From positions 1-47,943 of the forward strand of contig JAEEIA010000080.1 in assembly GCA_016281125.1 (NCBI GenBank): DNA of 47,943 nt, given 5' to 3'. Each line of letters opens with the position of its first letter. Position 1 is the first letter of the stretch. The notes under the pieces are model-generated. The model did not search any database, was not told where the DNA came from, and saw nothing but the letters and a program-made list of their open reading frames with translations. Source of the DNA: Oscillospiraceae bacterium. GTDB lineage: Bacteria > Bacillota > Clostridia > Oscillospirales > Ruminococcaceae. Below, piece by piece: positions 1,033 through 18,370 of the stretch. The position numbers were made by a program, and so were the translations under genes.

Positions 1033-1491
1033 ATGGCAGATACCAAAAAGATTCTGGAAGGGTTACAGATCCTTGTGACCGACCTTGCACAGCAGGCGGA
1101 CGGTCATGCGATCCAGTCGAAGATTTTCGCAGCACAGGGCTTTTCCAAGCTCGGCGCAAAGTACGCAGAACACGCAGCAGAAGAAAGAGGCTATGTTGAC
1201 AAGTGCATCGACCGTATCCTCGATCTCGGCGGCGAGGTAAAGAACGGTGCGAAAAAGGAAACACCCGTTTATACGGATGTGGTCGAGTGGATCAAATATG
1301 ATTTACAGGTCAGCAAGGACGGTCTTGCGTGGCTGAAAACGCTGGTTGAGGAAGCAAGGGACGATTACTCCACCTTTGATATTCTGAAAGTGTATTATCA
1401 GGACGAGGAAGAAGATATGTACTGGGCTGAACAGCAGCTTGAACTGATCGAAAAGATCGGTCTCCAGAACTGGCTGAATATGCAGGTGTGA
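1033..1491 (+). CDS. Ferritin-like (bacterioferritin-type) four-helix protein
   Basis: A 152-residue cytoplasmic protein of the ferritin-like diiron superfamily. Likely ligands are the Glu/His cluster 'YAEHAAEERGYVDKCIDR' (residues 44-61) and the C-terminal 'YYQDEEEDMYWAEQQLELIE' (121-140). These occupy the expected helices for a dinuclear iron site. Length and helix spacing fit bacterioferritin-like proteins that store iron or remove peroxide. ATG 1033 is chosen because CGGAGGG lies 11-16 bases upstream; an upstream in-frame GTG has no such site. It heads a run of redox genes (FMN split-barrel protein, winged helix, metallo-beta-lactamase/rubredoxin), which supports a role in oxidative or iron stress. 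Whether it binds haem cannot be told. Confidence 0.82.
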   Translation: MADTKKILEGLQILVTDLAQQADGHAIQSKIFAAQGFSKLGAKYAEHAAEERGYVDKCIDRILDLGGEVKNGAKKETPVYTDVVEWIKYDLQVSKDGLAWLKTLVEEARDDYSTFDILKVYYQDEEEDMYWAEQQLELIEKIGLQNWLNMQV

Positions 1492-1501
1492 TGTAACAGC
1501 T

Positions 1502-1897
1502 ATGATACCCGACAATGTAAAAAAGGTTTTCAATGAAAATCTTTGGTATCTGGCGACCTGCGGGGATGCGCTGAATGTTGTTCCCGTCGGCTTCAAGCGT
1601 GTATGTGATGACGGAAAGCTGGCGATCGGCGCAGTTCTCCTTGATACCACGCTTGAAAATATCAGGGCGAACGGCAAAGTCGCTGTTGCCTGTGCCAATC
1701 CGGTGACCGGAGAAGCCTACCAGATCAAGGGAACCGCGGAGCTTGTCTGCGAGGGCGAAGCCTATGCGCATTACAGTCAGCTCACAAAGAACACGTTCAA
1801 GGGCGCTATGCAGTTAAAGTGTGCGGTTATCATCACGCCCGAAAGGCTGATAAACGCTTCACCGAATGAGCATAACAAGGAAGAAATCGCAATTTGA
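1502..1897 (+). CDS. Pyridoxamine 5'-phosphate oxidase-like FMN-binding split-barrel protein
   Basis: A 131-residue protein of the PNPOx-like split-barrel superfamily. The opening 'NENLWYLATCGDALNVVPVG' is the first strand pair that packs against flavin. 'LDTTLENIRANGKVAVAC' and 'YQIKGTAELV' are the usual following strand-helix-strand segments. Members bind FMN, F420 or haem and reduce small substrates; the substrate here cannot be assigned. It begins 10 bases after the ferritin-like gene and ends 14 bases before the winged-helix gene, so it is almost certainly co-transcribed. Its place in a ferritin/rubredoxin operon suggests electron transfer in redox stress. Confidence 0.85.
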   Translation: MIPDNVKKVFNENLWYLATCGDALNVVPVGFKRVCDDGKLAIGAVLLDTTLENIRANGKVAVACANPVTGEAYQIKGTAELVCEGEAYAHYSQLTKNTFKGAMQLKCAVIITPERLINASPNEHNKEEIAI

Positions 1898-1911
1898 TGG
1901 AGGTGCTTACA

Positions 1912-2094
1912 ATGGCAGAAAAAGAACAGATTCTTGAGGCAATGAAAAAGGCTGGCGAACCGCTGAATGCAGGCAAAATCGCCGAGCTGACCGGTCTTGA
2001 CCGCAAAGTGGTTGACAAGGCCATGACAGCGATGAAGAAGGACGGTTCGATCGTTTCTCCCGTAAGATGCAAGTGGGAGCCTGCTGAAAAGTAA
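1912..2094 (+). CDS. Small winged-helix DNA-binding protein
   Basis: A 60-residue protein consisting of little more than one winged helix-turn-helix. 'KEQILEAMKKAGEPLNAGKI' is the first helix pair, 'AELTGLDRKVVDKAMTAMKK' is the recognition helix, and 'DGSIVSPVRCKWEP' is the wing. ATG 1912 is preceded by GGAGGTG at 1899-1905. A single Cys (in 'VRCKW') could be a redox switch, but that is a guess. It may be an autoregulator of this redox operon. It resembles short stand-alone MarR/ArsR-like wings found beside rubredoxin-type genes. Confidence 0.7.
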   Translation: MAEKEQILEAMKKAGEPLNAGKIAELTGLDRKVVDKAMTAMKKDGSIVSPVRCKWEPAEK

Positions 2095-2099
2095 CAGAA

Positions 2100-2130
2100 A
2101 AAGGCTGTCGGTTTGACATCGGCAGCCTTT
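2100..2130 (+). terminator. Intra-operon stem-loop, partial terminator
   Basis: AAAGGCTGTCG / CGGCAGCCTTT pair over 11 positions with one G-U, loop of 9. Only three U residues follow. It lies 21 bases before the next start codon, so it probably lowers rather than stops transcription into the rubredoxin-fusion gene. Confidence 0.55.
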
Positions 2131-2151
2131 CCCGTAACAAGGAGGAAAACT

Positions 2152-3093
2152 ATGGAGATCAAAGCAGTAAAATTCAGAAAAGACGGATTTTATACACAGC
2201 CGTTCGTGATGGGCGGTGAGGACGGCGCGGAGAAATATGACAGGAATATCCGCTATCGCGGCAGCTTGCAGAATTATCTGATTGACACGGGCGATGAAGT
2301 CATTCTTGTCGATACCGGACTTCCCGCAGGAACGCCCGAAGAAGTGCCGGACGAGAACTCGCCGATCTTTACAGGCAAGGATATTTGCAGCTATATGGAC
2401 GCTTTTGCGGCGCTCGGCTACAAGCCTGAACAGGTCACGAAAATTCTGCTGACGCACAGGCACAACGACCATTCGGGCGAATTAAAGTCCTTCCCGAACG
2501 CGAAGATCTATGTGAACGAAGATGAAGTGTCCGCAGAGGAATTGCAGGGACTTGCAAACATCGTTCCCGTCAGGTTTACGGACGGCGCATATCACAGTTT
2601 TCCTGACAGTCAGAAGATTGCCGGGGGCGTTTATCTGATCAAGGCCAAGGGACATACCAACGGCAACAGCATTATCATTGCCGAGAACGACGGATTGTTC
2701 TATATGCTTCACGGCGATATTACCTATGTGGACGAAGCGCTCTATGAGAATAAGCTGTCGGTTGTATATGATGACTTGTCTGCGGCGCGTGAAACGCTTG
2801 ACCGTGTGCGCGAGTTCGTCAGGAACAACCCGACTGTTTACTGCGGCACACATACGCCGCAGGGCTATGAGAACCTTGAAGCAAAGCGGGTTATGGACCT
2901 GGACAATCCTGTGCCGACTGTTCTTGCAGAGGCGGATTTCTCGGAAAAGAAAGCAACCGGCAAATATGTCTGCTCGATCTGCGGATATGTGTACGATCCG
3001 GCCGAGCATGACGGCGTTGCGTTCGAGGACTTGCCCGATGACTGGAAATGTCCGAGATGTAAGCAGGGGAAGGAGAAATTCAATCCTGCATAA
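2152..3093 (+). CDS. Metallo-beta-lactamase-fold protein fused to a C-terminal rubredoxin
   Basis: A 313-residue two-domain protein. Residues 1-260 form a metallo-beta-lactamase fold with the metal motif H102-R-H104-N-D106-H107, H168 ('GHT'), D189 ('HGDI') and H234 ('THTP'). Residues 270-313 are a complete rubredoxin with Cys274/Cys277 ('[10 protein letters not shown]') and Cys300/Cys303 ('CPRCKQGK'), which would hold one iron. The fusion suggests electrons pass from rubredoxin to the metal site, as in O2- or NO-reducing enzymes. The flavodoxin domain of true flavo-diiron proteins is absent, and the HxHxDH motif also fits zinc hydrolases (lactonase-like). ATG 2152 follows AAGGAGG. It is the last gene of the ferritin operon. 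Confidence 0.88.
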
Positions 3094-3480: not shown

Positions 3481-4179
3481 ATGAATGAACAACCGAAAGG
3501 AACGCTGTTTGTATTATATCTGCCGGAATGCAGGGAAAATCGGCTTCTTGCGCAGCAAGCAGCTGCATGGGCGTCGCCGGAGAAACAAGCGAAACGCAGT
3601 TCCTATACCTGTCAGGCGGAGTATGAGCGCTCCCTGTTCGGCGAAATGCTTGTCCGGATCGCTTTGTCCCGCATGACCGGCATTGCGCCGGAAAAGCTGC
3701 AAATCACCGCAGATGCTTTCGGAAAGCCGCAGCTCCGGTCAGATGCACGGCTTTGCTTTAATCTTTCGCATTCCGGCGATTATGCAGTCTGCGCAGTTTC
3801 GCATGCGGAATGCGGTGTCGATGCAGAAATGATCCGTACAGTCCGGCGCGGGTTTGCAACGCATTATTTTCACCCGTTTGAAGCGGCTTTTCTGGATGCA
3901 CTCCCGCCGGAACAATACGATGCGTATCTTTGCCGGATATGGACATTGAAGGAAGCATACGTCAAATATCTGGGGTGCGGGCTGCGGCGGGATATTTCCG
4001 CATTTTCATTCGTTGACGAGCATCAGCGGTTTCTCACACATTCGTTTGCACCGGCGCTGATTTTTCAGCAGTTCACACTCCCGCACGGATATATCCTCTC
4101 CGTTTGCGGGGAAGCATCATTTCAGCAACCGGTTTTCATCAAACCGGGGTTTCAGCCGGAAACTCAGCATTCTATATAG
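3481..4179 (+). CDS. Sfp-type 4'-phosphopantetheinyl transferase
   Basis: A 232-residue enzyme that moves the 4'-phosphopantetheine arm from CoA to a conserved Ser of carrier proteins. Family landmarks are in order: 'FGKPQL' (80-85), 'FNLSHSGDYAVCAVS' (93-107), the Mg2+ motif 'CGVDAE' (111-116; D114, E116) and 'IWTLKEAYVKYLG' (153-165). The length suits the Sfp class for secondary metabolism rather than the short AcpS of fatty-acid synthesis. Its partners are most likely the two carrier proteins at 8236 and 10058. ATG 3481 follows AAAGGAG. It has its own promoter and is separated from the biosynthetic operon by about 245 bases. Confidence 0.92.
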   Translation: MNEQPKGTLFVLYLPECRENRLLAQQAAAWASPEKQAKRSSYTCQAEYERSLFGEMLVRIALSRMTGIAPEKLQITADAFGKPQLRSDARLCFNLSHSGDYAVCAVSHAECGVDAEMIRTVRRGFATHYFHPFEAAFLDALPPEQYDAYLCRIWTLKEAYVKYLGCGLRRDISAFSFVDEHQRFLTHSFAPALIFQQFTLPHGYILSVCGEASFQQPVFIKPGFQPETQHSI

Positions 4180-4236: not shown

Positions 4237-4265
4237 TTGACAAGAAACCGCAATCATGCTATACT
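4237..4265 (+). promoter_or_regulatory. Sigma-A promoter of the biosynthetic operon
   Basis: TTGACA (4237-4242), 17-base spacer, TATACT (4260-4265). It leaves a leader of about 150 bases before the GNAT gene. The leader has a GTTAGC-type site at its start (4277-4292), a stem (AGCACAG 4332-4338 / CTGTGCT 4352-4358, then TTCTTT) and a second GTTAGC-type site (4375-4390). It may drive the whole series to 16719. Confidence 0.75.
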
Positions 4266-4276
4266 GTTTTACGGCA

Positions 4277-4292
4277 GTTAGCGATAGACAAC
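4277..4292 (+). promoter_or_regulatory. Partial GTTAGC-N4 palindrome at the operon start
   Basis: GTTAGC-GATA-GACAAC, the weakest copy of the shared motif: the left arm is perfect and the right arm matches 4 of 6. It lies about 5 bases past the expected transcription start, where a bound repressor would block initiation. Confidence 0.35.
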
Positions 4293-4374
4293 TGCTGAAA
4301 CCGGTTTTTGTAGAATTGTCAGATTCAGCACAGCACAGCATGGCCTATTGTCTGTGCTTTCTTTCATGCCACAA

Positions 4375-4390
4375 GTTAGCATATGCTTAC
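4375..4390 (+). promoter_or_regulatory. GTTAGC-ATAT-GCTTAC palindrome upstream of the GNAT gene
   Basis: Matches the perfect palindrome GTTAGC-N4-GCTAAC found before enolase with one mismatch. Its GTTAGCATATGCT core is identical to the site before the methyltransferase at 18478. It lies 35 bases before the GNAT start. Candidate operator; the regulator is unknown. Confidence 0.5.
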
Positions 4391-4424
4391 TTGATGGGCT
4401 GCCTGATTGATGGGAGTGGTCGTT

Positions 4425-4916
4425 ATGATGAATATTTCCAAAGCGTCGTCTGCTGATCTGGATGCATGCGTTGCCTTGATTCTGACAACGGAAATGGGGA
4501 AAAAATACTATCCGGCCGCGCAGATGCTACGCACTGAAATGGAACGCGGGCTCGAAGAGGATGAACTGTTTGTCCTGAAGGACGGCGACAGCGTTGCAGG
4601 CGTTTTGTGGTATCAGCTTCACGGCATCTTCCATTCCTATCCGTATCTGCATATCATTGCGGTCAGCGCGGAGCATCAGGGGCAGGGGCTCGGCAGAAAA
4701 ATGCTTGCGTTTTTTGAAAAGGATGCGCTGGAACACAGCAGGAATCATCTGCGCACCAAGGCGTTTCTGACCGTCGGCGACTTCAACCGTCATGCTGAGG
4801 ATGTATACATCCGGAAAGGCTATGTAAAGGTCGGGGAGCTGGAGGGGCTGTTTCGCCGGAACATCACGGAGAAGCTGTACATGAAGGTCGTAACTGCTGC
4901 CGAAACAGGCCGGTAA
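4425..4916 (+). CDS. GNAT-family N-acetyltransferase
   Basis: A 163-residue acyl-CoA-dependent acyltransferase. The acetyl-CoA-binding motif A is clear: 'IIAVSAEHQGQGLGRKMLAF' (Q-x-x-G-x-G, about residues 79-98). It is followed by 'FLTVGDFNRHAEDVYIRKGY', the motif B helix and strand. The acceptor is unknown. As first gene of the biosynthetic series it may acylate an amine of the product or give self-protection. Start: TTG 4407, ATG 4410, ATG 4425 and ATG 4428 are in frame; 4425 is chosen because GGGAG lies 8 bases upstream. The next gene follows after 47 bases. Confidence 0.85.
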   Translation: MMNISKASSADLDACVALILTTEMGKKYYPAAQMLRTEMERGLEEDELFVLKDGDSVAGVLWYQLHGIFHSYPYLHIIAVSAEHQGQGLGRKMLAFFEKDALEHSRNHLRTKAFLTVGDFNRHAEDVYIRKGYVKVGELEGLFRRNITEKLYMKVVTAAETGR

Positions 4917-4963
4917 ATATGCAGAAACCGACAGTGATACGAAAAAAGGAGTTTTGAAACGAT

Positions 4964-6154
4964 ATGATCTCATATGATTTGCAGGAAATACAGGAGCGTG
5001 CTTTTTTCTGCGAAATGATTACCTATATTTCGGAATACATCGAAGGGCTGCGAACCGAAAGTGACATGCGCTGCGTGTATATTGAATGCGCGCCGCAGCA
5101 TGAACAGGAGGTGCTGGAAAAGCTGGGTCAGCTCAAGGAGATGGTCACGAAGCAGATGACCGGCAAGGAAACACAGCTTGCAGTCAAAACGCTGGAGGAC
5201 TATACCGACCGCGAACCGATCTGCCGCGATGATGTCTTTCAGCAGCTTCTGGATATGGGCGCGATCTACACGCTTTCGGACGCTTCCTATGCTTACAGCG
5301 ATATTTTTCTCAGGGTTTATCACTATTTTGACCGCAAAATCGAAGCGTTCGGCTATGAAACATTCGGTGCGCTCGGCATTGAGGAGCATACTGTTCCGGT
5401 GCTTTATTCGGTTGCGGGATATGATGCAGGCGGCTATTTTGAAACATTCCCGCACCATATTATGTTTGAAAGCGTGCTGAAAAATGACATTTCCGTGTTG
5501 AATTCATTTTCGGAAAAGGGGACGGAGGACGGTGAAATCTTCCGCGAGATGAAGCTCCCGGATAATGTGCTCCGGACTGCTGCCTGCGCCCCGCTGTATC
5601 CTTATATGCAGGATAAGACTGTGGAAAGCGGCACGACGAAGGTGTTTCTGGTTTCCGGCAGATGCTTCCGCAATGAGGGGAACAACGTCAGAAAGCTCGC
5701 ACGCCTCAAAGAGTTTTACATGAAGGAATATGTCTTTATCGGCGCGGCTGAAAAAATGACAGAGCATATTCAGACGGCACATGCCCTCTGGAACGAATGG
5801 ATCAGCGTGTTCGGTCTGAATGCGAAAATCGAAACGGCAAATGATTCGTTCTTTGCGAATAACTACAAAAAGCTCAAGCTGTTCCAGCTGCTTGGTCAGT
5901 CCAAGCAGGAATTCAAGCTGCTGATTCCGAGCGATGATGATTATATATCGTGCAGCTCCGCGAATTTCCACCGAACCCATTTCACCAAGCGCTACCGCAT
6001 CTATGACGGCAGCAAGGAGAAGCTCGCAAACAGCGCTTGCTTTGCGTTCGGCGTCGATCGCCTGACCTATGCGTTACTGTCGCAGAAGGGCCTTGACCCG
6101 GCAAAATGGGATGCGCAGACACGCGAAGAAATCGAAAAGTATGTGAAGCTATAA
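4964..6154 (+). CDS. Class II aminoacyl-tRNA-synthetase-like amino acid:[carrier protein] ligase
   Basis: A 396-residue homologue of the catalytic core of atypical seryl-tRNA synthetases. Such proteins activate a small amino acid with ATP and load it on the phosphopantetheine of a carrier protein, not on tRNA. Class II motif 2 is 'RCFRNEGNNVRKLARLKEFY' (233-252) and motif 3 is 'AFGVDRLTYALL' (361-372). Cys208 ('AACAP'), Glu255 and Cys330 ('ISCSSANF') fit the Cys/Glu/Cys zinc site of the family. No anticodon-binding domain is present. With two carrier proteins and a phosphopantetheinyl transferase nearby, the carrier-protein ligase role is strongly favoured. Known members load Gly or Ala; the substrate here is open. 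ATG 4964 follows AAAAGGAG. Confidence 0.88.
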   Translation: MISYDLQEIQERAFFCEMITYISEYIEGLRTESDMRCVYIECAPQHEQEVLEKLGQLKEMVTKQMTGKETQLAVKTLEDYTDREPICRDDVFQQLLDMGAIYTLSDASYAYSDIFLRVYHYFDRKIEAFGYETFGALGIEEHTVPVLYSVAGYDAGGYFETFPHHIMFESVLKNDISVLNSFSEKGTEDGEIFREMKLPDNVLRTAACAPLYPYMQDKTVESGTTKVFLVSGRCFRNEGNNVRKLARLKEFYMKEYVFIGAAEKMTEHIQTAHALWNEWISVFGLNAKIETANDSFFANNYKKLKLFQLLGQSKQEFKLLIPSDDDYISCSSANFHRTHFTKRYRIYDGSKEKLANSACFAFGVDRLTYALLSQKGLDPAKWDAQTREEIEKYVKL

Positions 6155-6188
6155 CGAAAACAGCAAACAAACGGACAAGGAGAGTTTC

Positions 6189-7193
6189 ATGAGAACAGGT
6201 ATCAAGGGCATGGGCATTTATCTGCCTGAAAAGGTCATGACCAGTGAAGAAGTGGAGATCAAGGCCGGCTACGAGCGCCTCGGTGCGCGCAAGGGGCTTG
6301 TCAGGATGATCACCGGCGTGGAGGAGCGGCATTATGCTGCGGAGGATGAGTATTCCTCCGATCTTGCCTATCAGGCAGCGAAAAATGCAATGGAGGATGC
6401 AGGCATCACGGCGGATGAGGTCGATACGCTGATTTTCTGCTCCGTCACGCAGGATTTCGCGGAACCGGCAACGGCAAATGTCATCGCGGAAAAGCTCGGT
6501 CTGCACAATGCGTACTGCTTTGATGTCAAGAACGGCTGCAATGCGTTTTTGCAGGGTATGGATATCGCGGACAGTCTGATCAAGACCGGAAAGGCGAAAA
6601 ATGTGGTCATTACATCCGGCGAGGCACTGTCCAAGTGGGTTCGTTTTGATTACGACAACAAAGATGACCTGATGGTCGGCAGCCCGGTCACGCTTTCGCT
6701 CGGCGACGGCGGCGGCGCATTTGTCATCGGTCAGGTCGCGGATGATAAGGGGATTATCACGAGCTTCTTCCGCACATTCCCGGAGCTCTGGAATAACAAT
6801 GTGATGTGGGGCGGTGGTGTGCGCTATCCGCGCGAGCCTGAGAAGATGTATATTCCCGGCACGACCAAGCCGCTGATTGACAAGCATTTGCAGATCGGCA
6901 CGGAATTCATGGCGCAGGCCCTTGAAAAAACCGGCTGGACAATGGACGACGTTGATTTCTTTGCAAGCAGCCAGGCGGCAAAATGGATCGTAAAGAAGGT
7001 TTCCGAGGAAACCGGCGTATCGCCGGAAAAGCGAAGCTCCGTGATCACCAAATGGGGCAATGCCGCCTGCGCAAATCTGCCGCTGGTCGTGTATGAAGCA
7101 CGCAGAGAAGGCAGGATCAAAGAGGGCAGCAAGGTCGTATTCATCGGTGCTGCGGTCGGCTTCAATTCCTGCGTGTTCACAATCCAGTTCTGA
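6189..7193 (+). CDS. KAS III (FabH)-like condensing enzyme with altered catalytic triad
   Basis: A 334-residue thiolase-fold protein of the 3-oxoacyl-ACP synthase III family. The nucleophile is Cys117 in 'DVKNGCNAFLQGMDIA', and the Asn of the usual triad is kept (N291 in 'WGNAACANLP'). The segment that should read P-H-Q-A-N is 'SSQAA' (260-264), so the catalytic His is replaced by Ser261 and the following Asn by Ala264. Loss of His argues against ordinary decarboxylative condensation. KAS III relatives are known to make C-O, C-N or C-S bonds instead. Neighbours imply an aminoacyl or acyl chain on a carrier protein as substrate. It starts 34 bases after the ligase gene behind AAGGAGAG. Confidence 0.88.
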   Translation: MRTGIKGMGIYLPEKVMTSEEVEIKAGYERLGARKGLVRMITGVEERHYAAEDEYSSDLAYQAAKNAMEDAGITADEVDTLIFCSVTQDFAEPATANVIAEKLGLHNAYCFDVKNGCNAFLQGMDIADSLIKTGKAKNVVITSGEALSKWVRFDYDNKDDLMVGSPVTLSLGDGGGAFVIGQVADDKGIITSFFRTFPELWNNNVMWGGGVRYPREPEKMYIPGTTKPLIDKHLQIGTEFMAQALEKTGWTMDDVDFFASSQAAKWIVKKVSEETGVSPEKRSSVITKWGNAACANLPLVVYEARREGRIKEGSKVVFIGAAVGFNSCVFTIQF

Positions 7194-7207
7194 ACGGAGG
7201 CGGATGC

Positions 7208-8218
7208 ATGGAGCAGCGAAGAATTTGCAGCCGGTGCGCGATGCCCGAAACGCCGGGACACATCACGCTGGATGCGGAAGGCGTCTGCAATCTTTGCAGA
7301 CGGGACGAAAATGTTGTGAAGGGAAAGTCCGCCAGCTTTTTCGGCATGGACAGCGAACGGAAGATTCAGGCGCTGAAAAATAAGCTGGCAAAACGGCGCG
7401 GCGGCGGAAAATATGACTGCGCGGTTGCGGTTTCCGGCGGAAAAGACAGCCTGATGGCGCTGTATATCGCCAAAAAAGAGCTCGGGCTCAATCCGCTGGG
7501 CATTTTTCTCGATAACGGCTTTTCGATTCCGGAAATGTACGAAAACATTCAGAACGCCTCCGACATCCTGAATGTGGATCTCATCATGTTCCGGACGAAT
7601 ACCATGAAGAATCTGTTCAGGGTTATGCTGGAATCGCGCATGGAGCTCTATTACTGCCGCGTCTGCCACCTGCTGCTGGACAAATTCATCAAGGACATCT
7701 GCCTGCAGCACGACATTCATCTGATTCTCGGCGGATATACGAAAGGGCAGTCCTATATCGCGCAGGATGAGCTGTTCTGGATCTATGACCTTTCCGACCG
7801 GAATATGCTGACGCTGCTGGAGTCGCATCCGGAATTTGCAGATCTGGCGGAAATGTTCCGGAATCCGGTCGGCTATTTCGCCAAGCATTACAAAAGCATT
7901 GAACAAATCTCCCCGTTCAAGTATTTTGATTACGATGAGGATGACATCATTCAGCTTTTGAAAAACGAATTGAAATTCAAGGTGCCGGCATACAGCTGGC
8001 CGAAAAATTCCACGAACTGTATGTTCAATTTCCTCGCGCAGTATCTTGCGAGAAAGCAGTTCGGATATTCGCAGCATGAAACAGAAATGAGCGGGATCGT
8101 CCGCAGCGGTGAAATGACACGTGAGTGCGCGCTGGAAACGCTCAATTCGCCCATTACCCGCGCCGATTTGCAGAACGTCCTGAATATTGTCGGCGTATCG
8201 GAAGAAATACTGGACTGA
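7208..8218 (+). CDS. PP-loop ATP pyrophosphatase (adenine nucleotide alpha hydrolase), WbpG/TtuA-like
   Basis: A 336-residue adenylating enzyme. N-terminal zinc ribbon: C7-S-R-C10 and C27-N-L-C30 in the pattern 'CSRCAMPETPG...GVCNLC', like WbpG-type sugar amidotransferases. The PP-loop 'VSGGKDS' (75-81) binds ATP. A central C150-R-V-C153 and a later C271 ('STNC') match the three-cysteine layout that holds a 4Fe-4S cluster in tRNA thiolases TtcA and TtuA. The family activates a carbonyl by adenylation and then attacks it with sulfide or ammonia. AANH-type enzymes are known in 6-thioguanine and closthioamide pathways. Here it may turn a carrier-bound amide into a thioamide or amidine. It starts 14 bases after the KAS III stop, behind GGAGG. 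Confidence 0.87.
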   Translation: MEQRRICSRCAMPETPGHITLDAEGVCNLCRRDENVVKGKSASFFGMDSERKIQALKNKLAKRRGGGKYDCAVAVSGGKDSLMALYIAKKELGLNPLGIFLDNGFSIPEMYENIQNASDILNVDLIMFRTNTMKNLFRVMLESRMELYYCRVCHLLLDKFIKDICLQHDIHLILGGYTKGQSYIAQDELFWIYDLSDRNMLTLLESHPEFADLAEMFRNPVGYFAKHYKSIEQISPFKYFDYDEDDIIQLLKNELKFKVPAYSWPKNSTNCMFNFLAQYLARKQFGYSQHETEMSGIVRSGEMTRECALETLNSPITRADLQNVLNIVGVSEEILD

Positions 8219-8235
8219 AGAAAGACGGTGGTAAA

Positions 8236-8481
8236 ATGAAAGAAAAGATCAAGGCGATCATTCTCGAAAACACAGAAATGCTGACCGCTGAGGAGCTGAC
8301 GGACGACTTGCAGCTGATTACATCCGGCTTTATTGATTCGTTTGAGATTATTCAGATGATCGACCGGTTTGAGCAGGAATTCCATGTTGCCCTGCCGCTG
8401 GAGGATATTGAACTCAGCGATTTTGAATCCGTGAACGACATTGAGCGGATGCTGCTTGCGAAAGGAGAAAAGTCGGCATGA
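8236..8481 (+). CDS. Acyl/peptidyl carrier protein 1
   Basis: An 81-residue stand-alone carrier protein. The phosphopantetheine site is Ser35 in 'ITSGFIDSFEIIQM', a variant of the usual G-x-D-S-L (I-D-S-F). Acidic helix III region 'PLEDIELSDFESVNDIERML' is typical. The stop codon overlaps the start of the acyl ligase gene (ATGA), so translation is coupled and this protein is a likely partner of that ligase. It could equally receive the amino acid from the aaRS-like enzyme. Confidence 0.9.
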   Translation: MKEKIKAIILENTEMLTAEELTDDLQLITSGFIDSFEIIQMIDRFEQEFHVALPLEDIELSDFESVNDIERMLLAKGEKSA

Positions 8482-10055
8482 TCATGCAGGGCATTGATAC
8501 CTTTGAAAGCATTTTTCAGAAGGTTTTTTCCGGCGAACACAAGTACAATCTCTGTGAATGCTATACGGATCACGGCTGGATCAAGGAAAGCTATGAAAGC
8601 TATCTGCACCGCATTTACGGCATTGCCGTGAAACTGGAAACGGCTCTGGCAGACCTGCCCGCGGGAAGCTGGATCGGAATCAAAGCCGCAAACAGCCCGT
8701 ACTGGGCGGCACTGTTCTGGGCGCTGATGATGCGGGGCTATCGTCTTGTCATCATCGACAACAACGGAAATGAAGCATTCCTGAACAATGTGGCGGAGAA
8801 TGCGGTCATTTCGGTCATGATTTGCAGTGACATGAACACGCCGACGAATGTGAAAAAGCTCCCGTTTGCAGAACTGATTGCGTCCGAACCCGCAGACAGC
8901 TATCAGTCTGACCGGGCGTTTGCCGACAAAATTGCACTCTGCACCTCCGGTACGACCGGCACCCCGAAGATCTTCATTCATACCGGAAAGCAGTTCGGCG
9001 CACAGATCAATAATGTTCTGGCTCGCTATCAGGAATCGGATTCGCTGCGCTTTCTGCTGGAGGACACGAAAAAAAACATGTTTTCCATGTTCCCGTTCCA
9101 TCATATTTCCGCGCTGATGTCCATTTTTATCTATGAATTGCTGCACGGCACGATGGTCACAACGGAAACAGTCAACATCTCCAATGTCATCACTGCAATC
9201 CGGGAAGCAGGCGTGCAGATTGCATACTCTGTGCCGATGATCTGGGAGTCTGTGGTCAGAAACATCATCGGAAAATACCAGAAAGCGGATGCAGAAACAT
9301 TCCGGGCGGTTCTGGGCGATCAGCTCGGCTTCGTGATTATGGGTGCAGCGAAGGCGAATCCGGAAACGCTTGCCCTGTTCGACAGCGTCGGAATCTTCTC
9401 TTCTCAGGCTTACGGCATGACGGAGATCGGCTCGCTGACATCCAATACCAACCGGTTCATTGATATGCGGACAAACGGCTCGGTCGGCACGGTGGATTCG
9501 GACGTTTACGAAGCGCGGATTTACCATGATGACGGGACAATCACGGAAGAGGGCGAAGGCGAACTGATTGTCGCAGGCGATATTGTGTTTGCAGGACGGC
9601 TCATCGGCGGAAAGGAAGTTCCCGCAGAACTGTTCATGGGCAAATATTTCTTCACCGGCGATCATGTCCGCATTGAAAACAAATCCCTCTTTGTGCTCGG
9701 CCGAAACAAGGATGTGATCCTGAATTCGTCCGGTGAAAACATTTATCCGGATGAGCTGGAAGCATTTTTCAGCGAGATCAAAGCGTATTCGGATTCTTAT
9801 GTCGTGGTCGGCGTTTCGGAGCATCCGGTTCTGGCTGCTTTTGTACCGGATCAGGAAAAGGCGGATGCGGTCATGCGTGTTCTGAACAGAAAGAACCATG
9901 ATCTGCCTGTATTCAAGCGCCTGCGCGCAGCTTATTTCACCGATCAGCCGCTGCCTGCAACATCCAGCGGCAAGATCAAGAAAAATGCGATCCGTGAGTA
10001 TATCATCACCGGAAACGAACTGTTCCGGAAAGCGGAGATCAAAGGAGAAAGCTAA
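8478..10055 (+). CDS. AMP-dependent acyl/aryl-ACP ligase (ANL superfamily)
   Basis: A 525-residue stand-alone adenylation enzyme that activates a carboxylic acid with ATP and loads it on a carrier protein or CoA. Core motifs: A3 'TSGTTGTPK' (156-164), A5 'YGMTEIG' (312-318), A7 'TGDHVRI' (393-399), A8 'GRNKDVILNSSGENIYPDE' (408-426) and A10 'PATSSGKIKK' (493-502) with catalytic Lys499. The Asp235-type residue that marks alpha-amino-acid-specific NRPS domains is not evident, so a fatty, aryl or other acid is more likely; I cannot name it. It overlaps carrier protein 1 by 4 bases and is followed after 2 bases by carrier protein 2. Confidence 0.9.
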   Translation: MIMQGIDTFESIFQKVFSGEHKYNLCECYTDHGWIKESYESYLHRIYGIAVKLETALADLPAGSWIGIKAANSPYWAALFWALMMRGYRLVIIDNNGNEAFLNNVAENAVISVMICSDMNTPTNVKKLPFAELIASEPADSYQSDRAFADKIALCTSGTTGTPKIFIHTGKQFGAQINNVLARYQESDSLRFLLEDTKKNMFSMFPFHHISALMSIFIYELLHGTMVTTETVNISNVITAIREAGVQIAYSVPMIWESVVRNIIGKYQKADAETFRAVLGDQLGFVIMGAAKANPETLALFDSVGIFSSQAYGMTEIGSLTSNTNRFIDMRTNGSVGTVDSDVYEARIYHDDGTITEEGEGELIVAGDIVFAGRLIGGKEVPAELFMGKYFFTGDHVRIENKSLFVLGRNKDVILNSSGENIYPDELEAFFSEIKAYSDSYVVVGVSEHPVLAAFVPDQEKADAVMRVLNRKNHDLPVFKRLRAAYFTDQPLPATSSGKIKKNAIREYIITGNELFRKAEIKGES

Positions 10056-10057
10056 CA

Positions 10058-10306
10058 ATGGAACTGCAAACAATTCAGGAAAAAGTCAAGCGCTGCGTCA
10101 GTGAGGTGCTGAATGTGCCCGCTTCGGAAATGCAGGCAGAAACGCGCCTGATCGAAGACCTCGGCGCAAACAGCTTTGCGATTGCGGAAATCTTTCTTGC
10201 GCTGCAAACGGAATTCGGCATTACACTCGAGGAAAACTTCATGCTCGGACATTCTGTTTCCGTTCAGGATATGACGGCGCTGATGCAGCAGAAGGTCAAC
10301 GGATAA
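10058..10306 (+). CDS. Acyl/peptidyl carrier protein 2
   Basis: An 82-residue carrier protein with phosphopantetheine Ser39 in 'LIEDLGANSFAIAEIFLALQ' (GANSF in place of GxDSL). It is clearly different from carrier protein 1, so each probably holds a different building block. It begins 2 bases after the ligase stop with AAAGGAG upstream. It is the last biosynthetic enzyme-type gene before the transporters. Confidence 0.9.
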   Translation: MELQTIQEKVKRCVSEVLNVPASEMQAETRLIEDLGANSFAIAEIFLALQTEFGITLEENFMLGHSVSVQDMTALMQQKVNG

Positions 10307-10323
10307 ACAGGATAACCAACGAT

Positions 10324-10351
10324 GCCGGAATCTCGCCGCAGAGATTCCGGC
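10324..10351 (+). other. Perfect stem-loop between biosynthesis and transport genes
   Basis: GCCGGAATCTC / GAGATTCCGGC, an 11-bp perfect stem with a 6-base loop and no U-run. It could protect the upstream mRNA 3' end or partly separate expression of biosynthesis and transport. Confidence 0.6.
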
Positions 10352-10382
10352 AATCCTGATGAAAAGAGGAATATGGGGTCAT

Positions 10383-12173
10383 ATGAGGAAACAAACATCC
10401 AAAAAGAAGCAGGGAATCCCGCGGCTGCTGGAAATATCCGGTAAGCAGCCGAAGCTGCTGCTCGGCAGTATCCTGCTTTCCGTTCTGGGAACATTATGCC
10501 AGCTCGTCCCATACATTTCGGTCTATCAGATTATGTCCGAACTGCTGCACTGCGCTGCGGACGGCGGTGTACCGAATGAAGCGCTGCTGCTCCGGCAGGC
10601 GGCGGCCGGGCTTGCCGGCATGATCGGCGGATACCTGCTGAGCTACGCCGGAGGCATGCTGACGCATACCTTTGCGTACCGCGTGGTCTGCGGCGTCCGC
10701 CTGAAGACGGCTGAGCATATCGGCAGGCTGCCGCTCGGTTATCTGAACGGCAGTTCCATCGGCAGAATCAAGCAGATTCTGGAAGGCGATGCCGAACAGA
10801 TCGAGGCGTTTCTGGCGCATCAGCTTCCGGATTTTGTCAGCACAGCAGTCATGCTGGTCACCATGTTCATCATCATGTTCCGGTATCATGCGCTGCTGGC
10901 AGCCGTATGTCTGTTTCCGATCATTGCGGGATTTGTCTGTCAGTTTGCCGTGCTTATCAAGGTCATGAAAAGCGGCGGAGTGCAGAAAAACTTTGACGCG
11001 CTGGAACGCATCAGCGCATCCTCGCTGCAATATGTCAATGGAATGCCCTCCATCAAGATTTTCGGGCAGACGGTTCGTTCCTTCCGCAGCTTTTATGATG
11101 ACATCATCCGATACCGTGATTTCACCGGCGGCATGACAGAGATGATCCGTCCGGGCTTTGTCGGCTTCCGGATGTTCGTGCTTTCGGTTGCGGCATTCCT
11201 TGTCTCGGCCGGTCTGCTGCTGTATCTGAAAGACCCGGGCAGCATTTCCTTTGTCATTACATTCATTTTCTTCCTGATTCTCGGCCCGGCCGTTACAGCT
11301 CCGACGCTGAAGCTGCGCAATTTCTCGGAAAACATGAATGTCATTACAGAGGGCGTGAACCGGCTGGATGCAGTGCTGAACGAAGAAGCAATCCCTGAAC
11401 CGCTCCGGCGTGCTGCGGTCTGCAATCATGACATTACATTTGAACATGTCGCATTTTCGTATGACGGAAAGCAGGAAACGCTTCACGATGTTTCGTTTAC
11501 GGCAGAGCAGGGCAGAGTCACGGCGCTGGTCGGCCCCTCCGGCGCGGGAAAGAGCACGATTGCAGAGCTGATTCCGCGCTTTTATGATGTCACAGGCGGC
11601 GCAATCAGAATCGGCGGAACGGATATCCGCGATTTTTCTGTGGATGACCTCATGGAGCAGCTTGCATTCGTATTCCAGGAGAGCTTTTTGTTTGCGGATA
11701 CGGTGTATCAGAATATCGCCCCCGGCAAATCCGACGTTGCAAGAGAGGACGTGATCGCGGCTGCAAAGGCGGCGCAGTGCCACGACTTTATCATGCAGCT
11801 TCCGCAGGGGTATGATACGAAGCTCGGCGAGGGCGGTGTGTATCTGTCCGGCGGAGAAAAGCAGCGCATTTCGATTGCGCGCGCCATTCTGAAAAACGCT
11901 CCGATTCTGATTCTGGACGAAGCAAGTGCTTATGCCGATGCGGAAAATGAGTACGCATTGCAGCAGGCGCTTGCGGCACTTGCAAAAGACAAAACCGTCA
12001 TCATGATCGCGCACAGACTGACGACGATTCAAAATGCGGATCAGATTCTGGTGATTGAAAACGGTACGGTTTCTGAATGCGGCACACATGAACAGCTGCT
12101 CGGCATGAACGGAAAATATGCAGAGATGTGGCAGGCGATGTCAGCCTCATCCGACTGGCGGCTTGCGAAATAA
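10383..12173 (+). CDS. ABC half-transporter (permease + ATPase), siderophore-importer type
   Basis: A 596-residue fusion of a six-helix exporter-fold membrane domain (about 1-320) and an ATPase. Walker A 'GPSGAGKST', Q-loop 'FVFQESF', signature 'LSGGEKQR', Walker B 'ILILDEAS' and the H-loop 'IAHRL' are all present. Paired with the next gene it looks like the IrtA/IrtB and YbtP/YbtQ group: exporter fold, but importing metal-siderophore complexes. Export of the product is the alternative. Start: ATG 10383 is chosen over ATG 10359 because GAGGA and GGGG precede it, while 10359 has no such site. It lies 77 bases after carrier protein 2 in the same direction. Confidence 0.88.
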   Translation: MRKQTSKKKQGIPRLLEISGKQPKLLLGSILLSVLGTLCQLVPYISVYQIMSELLHCAADGGVPNEALLLRQAAAGLAGMIGGYLLSYAGGMLTHTFAYRVVCGVRLKTAEHIGRLPLGYLNGSSIGRIKQILEGDAEQIEAFLAHQLPDFVSTAVMLVTMFIIMFRYHALLAAVCLFPIIAGFVCQFAVLIKVMKSGGVQKNFDALERISASSLQYVNGMPSIKIFGQTVRSFRSFYDDIIRYRDFTGGMTEMIRPGFVGFRMFVLSVAAFLVSAGLLLYLKDPGSISFVITFIFFLILGPAVTAPTLKLRNFSENMNVITEGVNRLDAVLNEEAIPEPLRRAAVCNHDITFEHVAFSYDGKQETLHDVSFTAEQGRVTALVGPSGAGKSTIAELIPRFYDVTGGAIRIGGTDIRDFSVDDLMEQLAFVFQESFLFADTVYQNIAPGKSDVAREDVIAAAKAAQCHDFIMQLPQGYDTKLGEGGVYLSGGEKQRISIARAILKNAPILILDEASAYADAENEYALQQALAALAKDKTVIMIAHRLTTIQNADQILVIENGTVSECGTHEQLLGMNGKYAEMWQAMSASSDWRLAK

Positions 12174-12187
12174 GGGGGGGATCGGCA

Positions 12188-13924
12188 ATGTTCAGAGCAC
12201 TTTTTCACGATATTACCTGCAATGAGCCGAAAAAGCTGATCCGTCCTGCGGTCTGGAATACGCTTGCAAGCATTGCGAATCTGATGCCGTTCGGCTGCCT
12301 TGCGTATATTGTCAAACAGATCTACACGCATATTCAGGACGGAACGCCCGACCGCGGCGGCCTCTGGCTGGCATTCGGTCTGATGGTGCTGTTTACGGCT
12401 GCAACGTATTTTCTGGAAAACATCGCATGTAAAGTCACATATCATGACGGATTTTTTGCATCCGCAGAGGGAAGAATCCGTCTTGCGGAGCACATCCGCA
12501 AGCTGCCGCTCGGCATTCTGACCGGCAAATCATCCGGTGAGATCGGAAACACCATGATGAATGATTTTTCCAGAACGGAAACGGCAATGACGCACATTCT
12601 GCCGCAGATCATCAGCGGCTTTCTGGTCGCCGTCATCGCATCGGCTGTGATGCTGATCGCAGACTGGCGCATGGGGCTCGCCTGCTTTGCGGGATTCCCG
12701 CTGTCTGTCATCATCATGCTCGGTATGAAGCGCATGGAAACCCGCATGGCGCAAAGGCTGAACGCTTCCGCGACCGCACAGTCTGCCGGTCTGATTGAAT
12801 ATCTGACAGGCATGAAAACAATCAAGGCGTACCATATGCAGGGAGAGAATTTCGGAAAGCTGCGTCAGGTCTGCACCGCGCACCGCGACAACTGCATCCG
12901 GTCGGAGGGCTGCATCGGCTCTATGAATCTGCTTGCGGCGATGCTGCTGCGGTGCGGGCTCCCGCTGATGATGGCCGTCGGTGTGCATCTGCTGACAGGC
13001 GGCAGCTTGCAGATCACTACATTTGCGATGTTTCTGCTGCTCGGCACACGCATTTTCGACCCGCTTGCTGTGGCGATCATGAACTGGTCTGAGCTGAATA
13101 TGTGTGCAGCAGCCGGACAGCGCATCACAAAGCTGCTGGATGCGCCCGTCATGGAGGGCGGGGAGGATGCGCCCGAACAGCATGATTTCACTGTGGAAAA
13201 CGTGCATTTCGGCTACGGTGACACCGAGGTTCTGAAGGGCGTATCCGCTGCATTTCCGTCCGGCACGATGACCGCACTGGTCGGCCCGTCCGGTTCGGGC
13301 AAAAGCACCATGCTGAAGCTGCTTGCCCGCTTTTATGATCCGGCATCCGGCACTGTGCGCATGGGCGGCAGGAATGTCAGGGACATCGAGCCGGAAAAGC
13401 TGATGCAGAATATTTCCTTTGTGTTTCAGGATGTCTATTTATTTCAGGATACGGTCGCGGGCAATATCGGATACGGTAAAGAAAATGCAACGCGCGCGGA
13501 AATTGAACAGGCAGCAAAGGCTGCGAACTGCTATGATTTCATCATGGAAATGCCGGACGGCTTTGATTCGATGATCGGGGAGGGCGGCTGTACATTGTCC
13601 GGCGGAGAAAAGCAGCGCATCTCCATTGCGCGGGCGATGCTGAAAAATGCACCGGTTTTGCTTCTGGACGAAGCAACGGCATCCCTTGACCCTGAAAACG
13701 AAGCACAGATTCAGCAGGCAATCAACAGGCTTGCCGAAGGAAAAACAGTCATTGTCATTGCGCATAAGCTGAAAACAGTTGCCGAGGCCGATCAGATTCT
13801 GGTGTTTGATCACGGCCGGATCACGGAATCCGGAAAGCATGACGGGCTACTTGCACAGAACGGACTGTATGCACGGCTCTGGAACATCCAGAATCAGTCC
13901 GGTACATGGAAAATTCATTCGTAA
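12188..13924 (+). CDS. ABC half-transporter, partner of the preceding gene
   Basis: A 578-residue permease-ATPase fusion with 'GPSGSGKST', 'LSGGEKQRISIARAML', 'VLLLDEATASLD' and 'IAHKL'. It should form a heterodimer with the product of the preceding gene, 14 bases upstream. ATG 12188 follows an AAGGGGGG site; an in-frame upstream GTG lies inside the previous gene. The exporter-fold pair followed by an MptD-type ECF S component recurs at putative metallophore or porphyrin uptake loci of Firmicutes (my recollection of such loci). It is equally compatible with secretion. Confidence 0.88.
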   Translation: MFRALFHDITCNEPKKLIRPAVWNTLASIANLMPFGCLAYIVKQIYTHIQDGTPDRGGLWLAFGLMVLFTAATYFLENIACKVTYHDGFFASAEGRIRLAEHIRKLPLGILTGKSSGEIGNTMMNDFSRTETAMTHILPQIISGFLVAVIASAVMLIADWRMGLACFAGFPLSVIIMLGMKRMETRMAQRLNASATAQSAGLIEYLTGMKTIKAYHMQGENFGKLRQVCTAHRDNCIRSEGCIGSMNLLAAMLLRCGLPLMMAVGVHLLTGGSLQITTFAMFLLLGTRIFDPLAVAIMNWSELNMCAAAGQRITKLLDAPVMEGGEDAPEQHDFTVENVHFGYGDTEVLKGVSAAFPSGTMTALVGPSGSGKSTMLKLLARFYDPASGTVRMGGRNVRDIEPEKLMQNISFVFQDVYLFQDTVAGNIGYGKENATRAEIEQAAKAANCYDFIMEMPDGFDSMIGEGGCTLSGGEKQRISIARAMLKNAPVLLLDEATASLDPENEAQIQQAINRLAEGKTVIVIAHKLKTVAEADQILVFDHGRITESGKHDGLLAQNGLYARLWNIQNQSGTWKIHS

Positions 13925-13937
13925 AGGAGAAATCATC

Positions 13938-14531
13938 ATGAAAAACAGTTCATCCCGTTCATCCAGAGGTGCCGTTGCGGCAGGCGTATTCATCGCGCTG
14001 TATCTGGTAACCTACATCATTGTCGGCGCAATCTGCATGCCGGTCGCCGTTTTGTTCCTGCTGATGCCGATGGCAGTTGCGCTGCTTGCTGCACCGACCT
14101 ATCATATGATGATCGCCAAATCGCATTCCGGCGTTCCGATCTTCATTGCAGCGGTTCTGCCGAGTATCATTCTGATTGCAACCGGTCACATCCCGATTGC
14201 GCCGCTGATCAGTGTCCCGGCCGGCATCATTGCGCTGCTGATTGCAAAGCAGGGGCAGTATCGGAGCTTCCGCAGGAACGCGGTCAGCCATATGTTTTTC
14301 TCATGGAATCTGTTCGGCGGTTTTGTTCCGATCTGGTTTATGCGTGATTATTTCTTCCGTGTGACGGAAGAAGAGGGAATGAGCCGTGAGTTCTGCGATA
14401 CCGTGCGCAGTATGACGCCGTGGTGGGTGCTGCCTGCCATGCTCCTTGCAACGATGGCTTTTTCATTGCTCGGCTCTCTGTTTACGGGCAAGGTTCTGAA
14501 TAAACATCTCAAAAAAGCCGGCGTATTATGA
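13938..14531 (+). CDS. MptD-family ECF transporter substrate-binding (S) component
   Basis: A 197-residue, very hydrophobic protein with about six membrane helices, e.g. 'GAVAAGVFIALYLVTYIIVG', 'LFLLMPMAVALLAA' and 'IFIAAVLPSIILIATGHI'. Composition, length and position before a CbiQ-like T component and a double ATPase fit the MptD/Trep_Strep S-component family. S components give ECF importers their substrate specificity; the ligand is unknown. ATG 13938 follows AAAGGAG. The stop overlaps the next start by 4 bases (ATGA). Confidence 0.82.
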   Translation: MKNSSSRSSRGAVAAGVFIALYLVTYIIVGAICMPVAVLFLLMPMAVALLAAPTYHMMIAKSHSGVPIFIAAVLPSIILIATGHIPIAPLISVPAGIIALLIAKQGQYRSFRRNAVSHMFFSWNLFGGFVPIWFMRDYFFRVTEEEGMSREFCDTVRSMTPWWVLPAMLLATMAFSLLGSLFTGKVLNKHLKKAGVL

Positions 14532-15253
14532 AACAGAGCGAACGATTTCTGAAATTTGACCCGAGAACCAAACTGCTCCTGCTGTTAGAGCTGGACGTCC
14601 TTTTGTTTCTCGGGCGTTCGCTGTTTTATGAAACAGCGGTTCTGCTGTTTTGCGGCATCGTGGTCACAATCGGCGGAAAGCCGGAAACAGCACTGAAATA
14701 TCTGGCCGTTTTCGGGATCATGGCAGCTGTGCAGCAGATCGCGGACAAGAGAACAGAGCAGTTTTTCTTTTTTCTGCTGTACTTTCTGTGCGTCTGTGTC
14801 CGCAAGCTCCTCCCTTGCCTGATGCTCGGCAAATGGCTGATTGACACGACACCGGTCAGTGCCTATACTGCTGCAATGTGGAAAATGAAGCTGCCGCGCA
14901 GTGTGATCGTGACTTCGTCCGTGATTTTCCGCTGCTTTCCGACCATCCGCGAGGAATGGAATGCGATCCGGAATGCAATGAAGCTGCGCGGCATCGGCAT
15001 CAGCCTCAGAGCAGTGCTGTGTTCGCCGCTGAAAACCATGGAATATGTGTTTGTGCCGATGTTTATCTCCGTGCTGAATATCAGCGATGAGCTGGCTGCG
15101 GCTGCGTGCTGCCGCGGGCTGGATGATCCGTGTCAGCATACCTGCATGGAGCCGGTTCAGTTCCGGATCTGTGATTATCTTGTCACAGCAGCTGCGACGG
15201 GCTGGCTGGCCGTCATGTGCATGCTGCATCTGAAAGGAGGCGTTTCGCCGTGA
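14528..15253 (+). CDS. CbiQ/EcfT-like transmembrane component of an ECF transporter
   Basis: A 241-residue membrane protein beginning 'FDPRTKLLLLLE', the usual N-terminus of EcfT proteins. Its C-terminal cytoplasmic helices carry the Arg-Gly motifs that couple to the ATPases ('MKLRGIG' and 'CCRGLDDP'). It works with the S component before it and the ATPase after it. Both neighbouring genes overlap it by a few bases, so the three subunits are translationally coupled. Confidence 0.88.
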   Translation: MKQSERFLKFDPRTKLLLLLELDVLLFLGRSLFYETAVLLFCGIVVTIGGKPETALKYLAVFGIMAAVQQIADKRTEQFFFFLLYFLCVCVRKLLPCLMLGKWLIDTTPVSAYTAAMWKMKLPRSVIVTSSVIFRCFPTIREEWNAIRNAMKLRGIGISLRAVLCSPLKTMEYVFVPMFISVLNISDELAAAACCRGLDDPCQHTCMEPVQFRICDYLVTAAATGWLAVMCMLHLKGGVSP

Positions 15254-16874: not shown

Positions 16875-16903
16875 TTGACAAACGAATCTGTCTGTGCTAT
16901 AAT
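16875..16903 (+). promoter_or_regulatory. Consensus sigma-A promoter of enolase
   Basis: TTGACA (16875-16880), 17-base spacer, TATAAT (16898-16903): a perfect consensus, as expected for a highly expressed glycolytic gene. Confidence 0.88.
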
Positions 16904-16909
16904 ATTGTA

Positions 16910-16925
16910 GTTAGCAATCGCTAAC
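16910..16925 (+). promoter_or_regulatory. Perfect palindrome GTTAGC-AATC-GCTAAC at the enolase transcription start
   Basis: Both 6-base arms are perfect. The site begins 7 bases after the -10 box, so it covers the expected +1. Related sites lie at 4277, 4375 and 18478. This position suits a repressor. The protein that binds is unknown; a metal-responsive regulator is a guess from the context. Confidence 0.6.
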
Positions 16926-16952
16926 GCGAATAGATCGGCAGATTTCTTTCTG

Positions 16953-18370
<1,418 letters not shown>

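Follow-up and report, generated by a model that had tools for sequence, protein, structure and literature searches.

The window analysed here is a DNA stretch of 47,943 nucleotides from an Oscillospiraceae bacterium (GenBank assembly GCA_016281125.1, contig JAEEIA010000080.1), and the subject of this report is a biosynthetic and transport operon located at positions 4425–16719 of its forward strand. The first half of the operon consists of seven core genes (4425–10306). These had been claimed as seven adjacent genes in a preliminary description of the same DNA, and all of them were found to be intact, colinear and tightly packed, with no internal stops and with intergenic gaps of −4 to +47 bases. 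The end point of 10306 given in that description proved too short; five transporter genes (10359–16719, gaps of −4 to 52 bases) continue the operon, the first of them starting 52 bases after 10306.

The core genes, all on the forward strand, encode in this order a GNAT N-acyltransferase (4425–4916; Pfam Acetyltransf_1, 1.5e-10), a SerRS-like amino acid:carrier-protein ligase (4964–6154; PDB match 4h2w/3mey), a KAS III-like enzyme (6189–7193; recognised by family profile and alignment), a PP-loop enzyme of the AANH type (7208–8218; NCBIfam match and alignment), a first carrier protein, CP1 (8236–8481; Pfam PP-binding, 9e-07), an AMP-forming acid:carrier ligase (8478–10055; Pfam AMP-binding, 4e-30) and a second carrier protein, CP2 (10058–10306; Pfam PP-binding, 4.5e-10). 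An Sfp-type 4'-phosphopantetheinyl transferase (PPTase), identified by the Pfam families ACPS (6e-17) and AASDHPPT_N, is encoded on the same strand at 3481–4179, just upstream, as had been stated. A Pfam and NCBIfam scan of the operon proteins gave two stand-alone carrier proteins and no modules of nonribosomal peptide synthetases (NRPS) or polyketide synthases (PKS). The proposal of two separate loading enzymes for the two carriers is supported.

The PP-loop enzyme and the loading enzymes

The PP-loop protein had been thought to carry thiolase-like cysteines. What was found instead are two N-terminal CxxC pairs and a CxxC...C set located at the positions of the iron-sulfur (Fe-S) cysteines of CtaC, the thioamide synthetase of closthioamide biosynthesis. 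According to excerpts of the CtaC report, residues D77, S78, C154, C157 and C284 of that enzyme were mutated and shown to matter (PMC6772006). In genome G282, a relative of the window enzyme is encoded within a row of genes that corresponds to ctaB–ctaK, the genes being named by their order, and this relative was taken to be CtaC because its residues match the five mutated ones. The window enzyme is 25% identical to CtaC over 349 columns and keeps all five residues, as D80, S81, C150, C153 and C271; C150 and C153 were placed by a MAFFT family alignment, and BLAST shifts that stretch. This alignment makes the window protein a CtaC homologue, and it is predicted to catalyze a sulfide- and Fe-S-dependent thioamidation on the carrier.

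The CxxC pair with the late cysteine is present in all six cluster enzymes known to us (see below), in CtaC and in five of five further relatives that score below the cut-off of the NCBIfam model WbuX (L054–L058); three of these (L054, L057 and L058) lie near NRPS or PKS genes and two (L055 and L056) near AMP-binding genes. None of the five relatives above the cut-off has the set, and it is also missing from L026, a below-cut-off relative that is fused to a longer protein. In a phylogenetic tree, the cluster enzymes form one group with a support of 100/99. A structure prediction made from two sequences gave a mean pLDDT confidence score of 55.5 and was not used.

The N-acetyl sugar amidotransferases WbuX and LgnA belong to the same PP-loop family and share with the window enzyme the N-terminal cysteine pairs and a near full-length WbuX match, here of 157 bits and under the cut-off of 203.2. 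A plain sugar amidotransferase was set aside as the principal assignment, since the CxxC...C cysteines part the enzyme from all five above-cut-off relatives (LgnA being aligned in part); it was kept as a rival, the tree support being weak. In its present form, this rival holds that the enzyme acts like WbuX and inserts nitrogen into a CP1-bound N-acyl group, giving an amidine or an amidine-derived ring, in what might still be a metallophore. Such an N-acyl group could be an acetyl added by the GNAT, similar to the one on which WbuX enzymes act in sugars. WbuX-type enzymes have HisH/HisF-like partners nearby that supply ammonia; no such partner was found among the operon proteins scanned. With the score below the cut-off, the CxxC...C set dividing the cluster enzymes from the five above-cut-off relatives and the carrier proteins forming its gene context, nitrogen insertion appears improbable.

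Thioamidation by a CtaC-like enzyme, the role preferred here, agrees with the other likenesses to the closthioamide (cta) pathway of Ruminiclostridium cellulolyticum, and the suggested nearness to closthioamide was borne out. Both systems are NRPS-independent, employ two stand-alone carriers, load the amino acid and the acid by separate enzymes and contain a CtaC-type AANH enzyme with the five mutated residues kept; CP1 also resembles CtaE (34% over 71 amino acids) and the AMP ligase resembles CtaI (24% over 376 amino acids). When ten Cta proteins, named by gene order and with CtaA left out, were compared with the window by tblastn, only CtaC, CtaE and CtaI gave a match at E ≤ 0.01, and CtaB, CtaD, CtaF, CtaG, CtaH, CtaJ and CtaK gave none. 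The cta pathway uses the ATP-grasp enzyme CtaD, whereas the window has a SerRS-like ligase together with the KAS III, the GNAT, the transporter genes and feo-type operator sites. The window pathway would thus work like that of closthioamide without being a copy of it.

The nearest structures to the SerRS-like ligase are 4h2w and 3mey, entries for amino acid--[acyl-carrier-protein] ligase 1. Three residues, Cys208, Glu255 and Cys359, which we take to be zinc ligands from the alignment to these structures, are kept in nine of nine sequences. Like the Bll0957-type amino acid:[carrier protein] ligases, the enzyme has a SerRS-derived core, the three putative zinc-ligand residues and carrier genes in the same gene row; it differs from them in scoring below the cut-off of NCBIfam NF005479 (143 against 357 bits) and in being part of a biosynthetic operon. 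It is predicted to load an amino acid on a carrier rather than on tRNA.

Relatives of the PP-loop enzyme also occur on plasmids, where a search with the window protein matched 16 of 72,556 records, 13 of them with at least 80% query cover at 23–27% identity and three over short stretches at 32–36%. On Roseovarius and Streptomyces plasmids, CtaC-type stretches with the CxxC...C set lie inside genes annotated as NRPS or condensation-domain protein (L050, 9415–17463; L051, 7938–10118), and these are candidate in-line sulfur-inserting domains.

Distribution of the gene set

Absence of these genes as a group from other genomes had been named as an observation that would overturn the preliminary description. 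All seven core genes were found in each of the six genomes that carry this PP-loop subfamily, the window included, and the co-occurrence is more than chance. The ligases of the other five clusters are 46–52% identical to that of the window. In Peptoniphilus lacydonensis (L004) the order is PPTase, GNAT, ligase, KAS III, PP-loop enzyme, CP1, AMP ligase, CP2, a TetR gene, two ABC genes and the S, T and A components of an energy-coupling factor (ECF) transporter, colinear with the window; the KAS III proteins of the two are 69% and the PP-loop enzymes 51% identical.

The PP-loop gene is present in four of 30 genomes of the window's genus, the window included. The other three (L010–L012 with L016–L019) have the same core and transporters plus NRPS modules, which were recognised by Pfam in G003 and G024 and by a 75% identical frame in G007. 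Hence, since three of the six clusters carry such modules, the absence of NRPS is a property of the window's variant and not of the family; the claim of a thiotemplated gene set free of NRPS and PKS holds for the window. In another family (f27), one of 197 genomes has all seven core genes; they lie on a contig of 9.8 kb (L068) that carries no NRPS genes and ends in a second KAS III frame. CP2 lies between KAS III and the ligase in L011, and the GNAT adjoins CP1 in four of the other five clusters and the ligase in L004. The PPTase gene adjoins the cluster in L004 and L011 too, and was not seen beside it in L010, L012 or L068.

The gene set is rare. In overlapping samples (class, phylum, order, genus and family), the PP-loop gene was found only in the window itself among 391 genomes of the class, 398 of the phylum and 325 of the order, the last searched with alignment A1. 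The ligase is present in four of 150 relatives, and the ECF S component, at E ≤ 1e-25, in three of 245 genomes of the class, each count including the window. A cassette of ECF and ABC genes without the core genes was found in stretches from G376 and G292, and a plasmid search with the ECF S component returned one record at 29%. Literature searches confined to open-licence papers listed none on this gene set, which is weak evidence of absence.

The ligase was also sought by short peptide patterns in one genome per species (84,980 species); 91 stretches matched, of which four encoded a relative, one being that of Peptoniphilus lacydonensis (L004). Two of the relatives, from Lachnobacterium bovis (L003, 2917–12025) and a metagenome-assembled Lachnospiraceae genome (L005, 1265–12026), belong to a different cluster, in which the SerRS-like ligase is accompanied by a KAS III that has its catalytic His, AMP ligase and carrier genes, FtsX-type ABC genes and a formyltransferase-family gene; no PP-loop match was found in either. 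The formyltransferase-family gene follows the ligase (by Pfam in L005, by a 46% identical frame in L003). This arrangement points to N-acylation as the next step for the amino acid on the carrier, a step that the GNAT may perform in the window cluster. The fourth relative (L002) has a carrier-like frame upstream; the other core genes are absent from its 11.6-kb stretch.

Transport genes and iron-box-like sites

The second half of the operon encodes two ABC half-transporters, assigned by structure-database matches, namely a YbtP/IrtA-like ABC1 (10359–12173) and a YbtQ-like ABC2 (12188–13924), followed by an ECF S component of the Trep_Strep/MptD family (13938–14531; Pfam 7.1e-48, NCBIfam TIGR02185 above cut-off), a T component of the CbiQ family (14528–15253; Pfam CbiQ, 2e-13) and an A component with a duplicated ATPase (15250–16719; Pfam ABC_tran, 1.2e-54, in two stretches). 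All five lie on the forward strand, and the start codons of ABC2 and the A component are inferred ones. Among the best 60 listed matches, the half-transporters nearest to ABC1 are YbtP (6p6i_A, 315 bits) and IrtA (311), with Sav1866 at 264 and MsbA at 254; those nearest to ABC2 are YbtQ (6p6i_B, 315) and YbtP (300), with Sav1866 at 266. Eukaryotic proteins made of two halves stand above these in the list, their score being the sum of two matched stretches. By sequence, then, the operon combines a YbtP/YbtQ-like pair with an ECF set, both of the siderophore-importer type.

A comparable arrangement is described for equibactin, where excerpts of the report name EqbKL as a YbtPQ-like pair, a DtxR-like regulator and, as a further ABC system, EqbHIJ, which was the one needed for siderophore iron uptake (PMC3672683); for the cluster on 023_CTn1 of Clostridioides difficile, ABC and Ecf transporter genes appear in the portion of the report used (PMC6814731). 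The window differs from these equibactin/yersiniabactin-type systems in being free of NRPS and PKS and in the proposed origin of its sulfur from a CtaC-like enzyme; the likeness to the Eqb system is drawn from its published description.

The operon is preceded by a forward-strand promoter-like −35/−10 element (4237–4265; TTGACA, 17, TATACT; 11 of 12 consensus matches). By itself such an element is no proof of a promoter, as 16 were found in the region against 12.4 expected. A near-palindrome at 4373–4392 led to the motif GTTAGCN4GCTAAC, which with at most one mismatch occurs at 13 places in the genome, as compared with seven for a reversed control. Nine of these fall in 23 kb of contig C84, two in the window, one in C80 and one in C59. 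The C84 region encodes FeoB and a DtxR-type repressor (both by Pfam) and another ABC half-transporter pair, and two FeoA-like frames, read by eye, are located directly 3' of motif sites. When a matrix was built from just the nine C84 sites (the feoAAB/DtxR region), its top three scores in the whole window fell at 4375–4390 (20.3; one mismatch to the motif), 16910–16925 (18.7; a perfect motif) and 4277–4292 (14.5; 11 bases past the −10 element), the next score being 9.5. In 30 block shuffles of the window the highest score was 16.7 and the mean best 12.1; the site at 4277 is not significant alone, because 14.5 lies within the shuffled-window maxima. Across 15 loci of other genomes, 247,245 bases in all, one site scored at least 14. 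At feoAAB, at 4277, at 16910 and in L068, the site closely follows a −10-like element.

Further sites of at least 14 lie near related genes. They were found ahead of the permease gene preceding the cluster in G003 (20.3 and 14.6) and G007 (14.7), between the permease gene and TetR-ABC genes in G024 (24.0, 17.1 and 22.0), upstream of where the ligase of G1058 probably starts (20.3) and directly ahead of the stand-alone ECF-ABC cassettes L066 and L067 (16.0 and 18.5). The permease genes presumably head the same operons in G003, G007 and G024. The spacing of the sites differs from that of the canonical DtxR box, and the motif is presented as one derived from this genome itself. A TetR operator was considered for the palindrome, TetR genes being present in or beside L004, L011, L066 and L067; the motif is also found at feoAAB, and a shared metal regulator fits better.

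The dense group of sites on C84 (about 11000–34200; L082 and L083) lies among genes for FeoB, FeoA-like frames, the DtxR-type repressor, ApbE, a P-type ATPase, an HMA protein, a flavodoxin, a TetR protein and the ABC half-transporter pair. The site at 16910–16925 follows a promoter-like element with 12 of 12 consensus matches (16875–16903), located after the last transporter gene, and precedes an enolase gene that starts at 17069 (the unit spans 16875–18370). The genome has two enolase genes, 90% identical, and the best site near the other copy (C86, 67302–68600) scores 11.3; the copy behind the operon may thus be an iron-controlled one. G024 (L017) likewise has an enolase gene with a site (21.9), followed there by genes for ECF S and T components.

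The transport genes and the operator-like sites bear on the possibility that the product is a thioamide antibiotic like closthioamide, exported against competitors, with the ABC pair as a self-protecting exporter. The homology to CtaC, CtaE and CtaI would fit such a product, and so would the fold of the ABC half-transporters, which is also like that of exporters. However, an ECF set, which is of the importer type, is part of the operon in both the window and Peptoniphilus, feo-type sites are found at the promoter, and the half-transporters score about 50 bits better against YbtP/YbtQ than against Sav1866. An exported antibiotic is therefore considered unlikely.

Proposed pathway and neighbouring features

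The reading that we favour, and regard as fairly probable, is that the operon encodes an iron-regulated, NRPS/PKS-free, closthioamide-like route to a sulfur-modified metallophore with its own uptake system; the product is probably a thioamide. Four features go beyond the preliminary description, namely the transporter half, the operators of iron-box type, the missing His of the KAS III and the NRPS modules in three of six clusters.

In the proposed order of steps, arming of both carriers by the PPTase would come first. The SerRS-like ligase would then adenylate an amino acid and attach it to CP1, and the AMP ligase would load a carboxylic acid on CP2. An amino acid would then be joined with another acid, as had been supposed before. 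Two enzymes could acylate the amine of aminoacyl-CP1: the KAS III, transferring the acyl group of CP2 without decarboxylation, or the GNAT, with an acyl-CoA as donor. The CtaC-like enzyme might next adenylate the amide oxygen on CP1 and exchange it for sulfur, aided by a [4Fe-4S] cluster; the outcome would be a thioamide or a ring that is closed by the sulfur. The metal complex of the product would be taken up by the YbtPQ-like pair, the ECF transporter or both, and under iron sufficiency a DtxR-type regulator would repress the operon at the GTTAGCN4GCTAAC sites that it has in common with feoAAB.

The part given to the KAS III is suggested by its active site. The Cys-His-Asn triad is incomplete, with Cys117 and Asn291 kept and the His replaced by Ser261. 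The His position is Ser or Thr in all six clusters (the second, cut-off KAS III of L068 being left out), and the His is kept in the two relatives with no PP-loop gene at the locus (L003 and L005). In FabH, this His is needed for decarboxylation, and its loss makes acyl transfer likelier than decarboxylative condensation. That the KAS III instead forms a C-C bond between two carrier-bound acyl groups, giving a small ketone, a tetramate or a pyrrole-like ring that the PP-loop enzyme tailors, is suggested by its family and by the kept Cys117 and Asn291 and is very improbable in view of the replaced His; in addition, the scanned operon proteins included no ketoreductase and none for malonyl loading.

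Several observations weigh against the thioamide metallophore. On the enzyme side, the identity of the window PP-loop protein to CtaC is low, the cluster enzymes and CtaC split from the amidotransferases with weak support (75/85) and on long branches, CtaC is the sole match among the ten Cta proteins in L004 and L068, and no release enzyme was recognised in the operon. As to regulation, the reversed control motif itself occurs seven times against the 13 places of the motif, one of which lies inside the ABC gene of C59. No site of at least 14 was found at the Peptoniphilus cluster, and the only site of L004 (16.8) is inside an unrelated gene; L012 (1431) and L018 (4183) likewise have off-cluster sites. 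The DtxR-type regulator is assigned by nearness only, and DtxR-type proteins can sense manganese. As to transport, the YbtPQ-like fold is common to exporters, and deletion of eqbKL left an iron-toxicity phenotype unrelieved, according to excerpts of the equibactin report (PMC3672683).

CtaC was called the first example of carrier-bound thioamide formation to be reconstituted (excerpts of PMC6772006), the product of its pathway being an antibiotic, and siderophore genes in anaerobes were called rare (excerpts of PMC6814731). The kind of pathway is known from this one reconstituted case, from which the present operon departs in its loader, its joining enzyme, its transport and its regulation. 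If the metallophore assignment is true, an operon of a gut-type anaerobe connects iron supply with thioamide chemistry, for which one antibiotic is the known case, and the role of thiotemplated thioamides in anaerobes becomes testable. The assembly route would be compact: it has two non-NRPS loaders, and its His-less KAS III is a candidate amide synthase. The operator motif could be used for finding more such operons. More tentatively, and with rather less confidence than in the route itself, the operon may stand for a metallophore class of its own. The product would be an iron-regulated thioamide chelator, assembled without NRPS or PKS by a tRNA-synthetase-derived ligase in place of an adenylation domain, a His-less KAS III in place of a condensation domain and a CtaC-type Fe-S enzyme that provides the sulfur ligand, and it would be taken up by ECF and YbtPQ-like transporters, with related species adding NRPS modules to the same core.

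The surroundings of the operon contain further features. Upstream (1033–3093), genes for a ferritin-like protein, a PNPOx-like flavoprotein and a metallo-beta-lactamase/rubredoxin fusion form an oxygen or metal stress group, and the enolase gene is followed by a leucine carboxyl methyltransferase-family gene (18546–19337). A protein with GEMPEGFDPSNMPEGF-type repeats and no Pfam match is encoded at 30174–31031, and a like stretch ends the frame at 33948–35894, near ABC-transporter-like genes. Dockerin-type matches were found at 44046–46940 and 47200–47895, the second just under the Pfam cut-off; one of the two frames has a CBM6 and a GH141-like insertion domain, and the other a long Thr-rich stretch.

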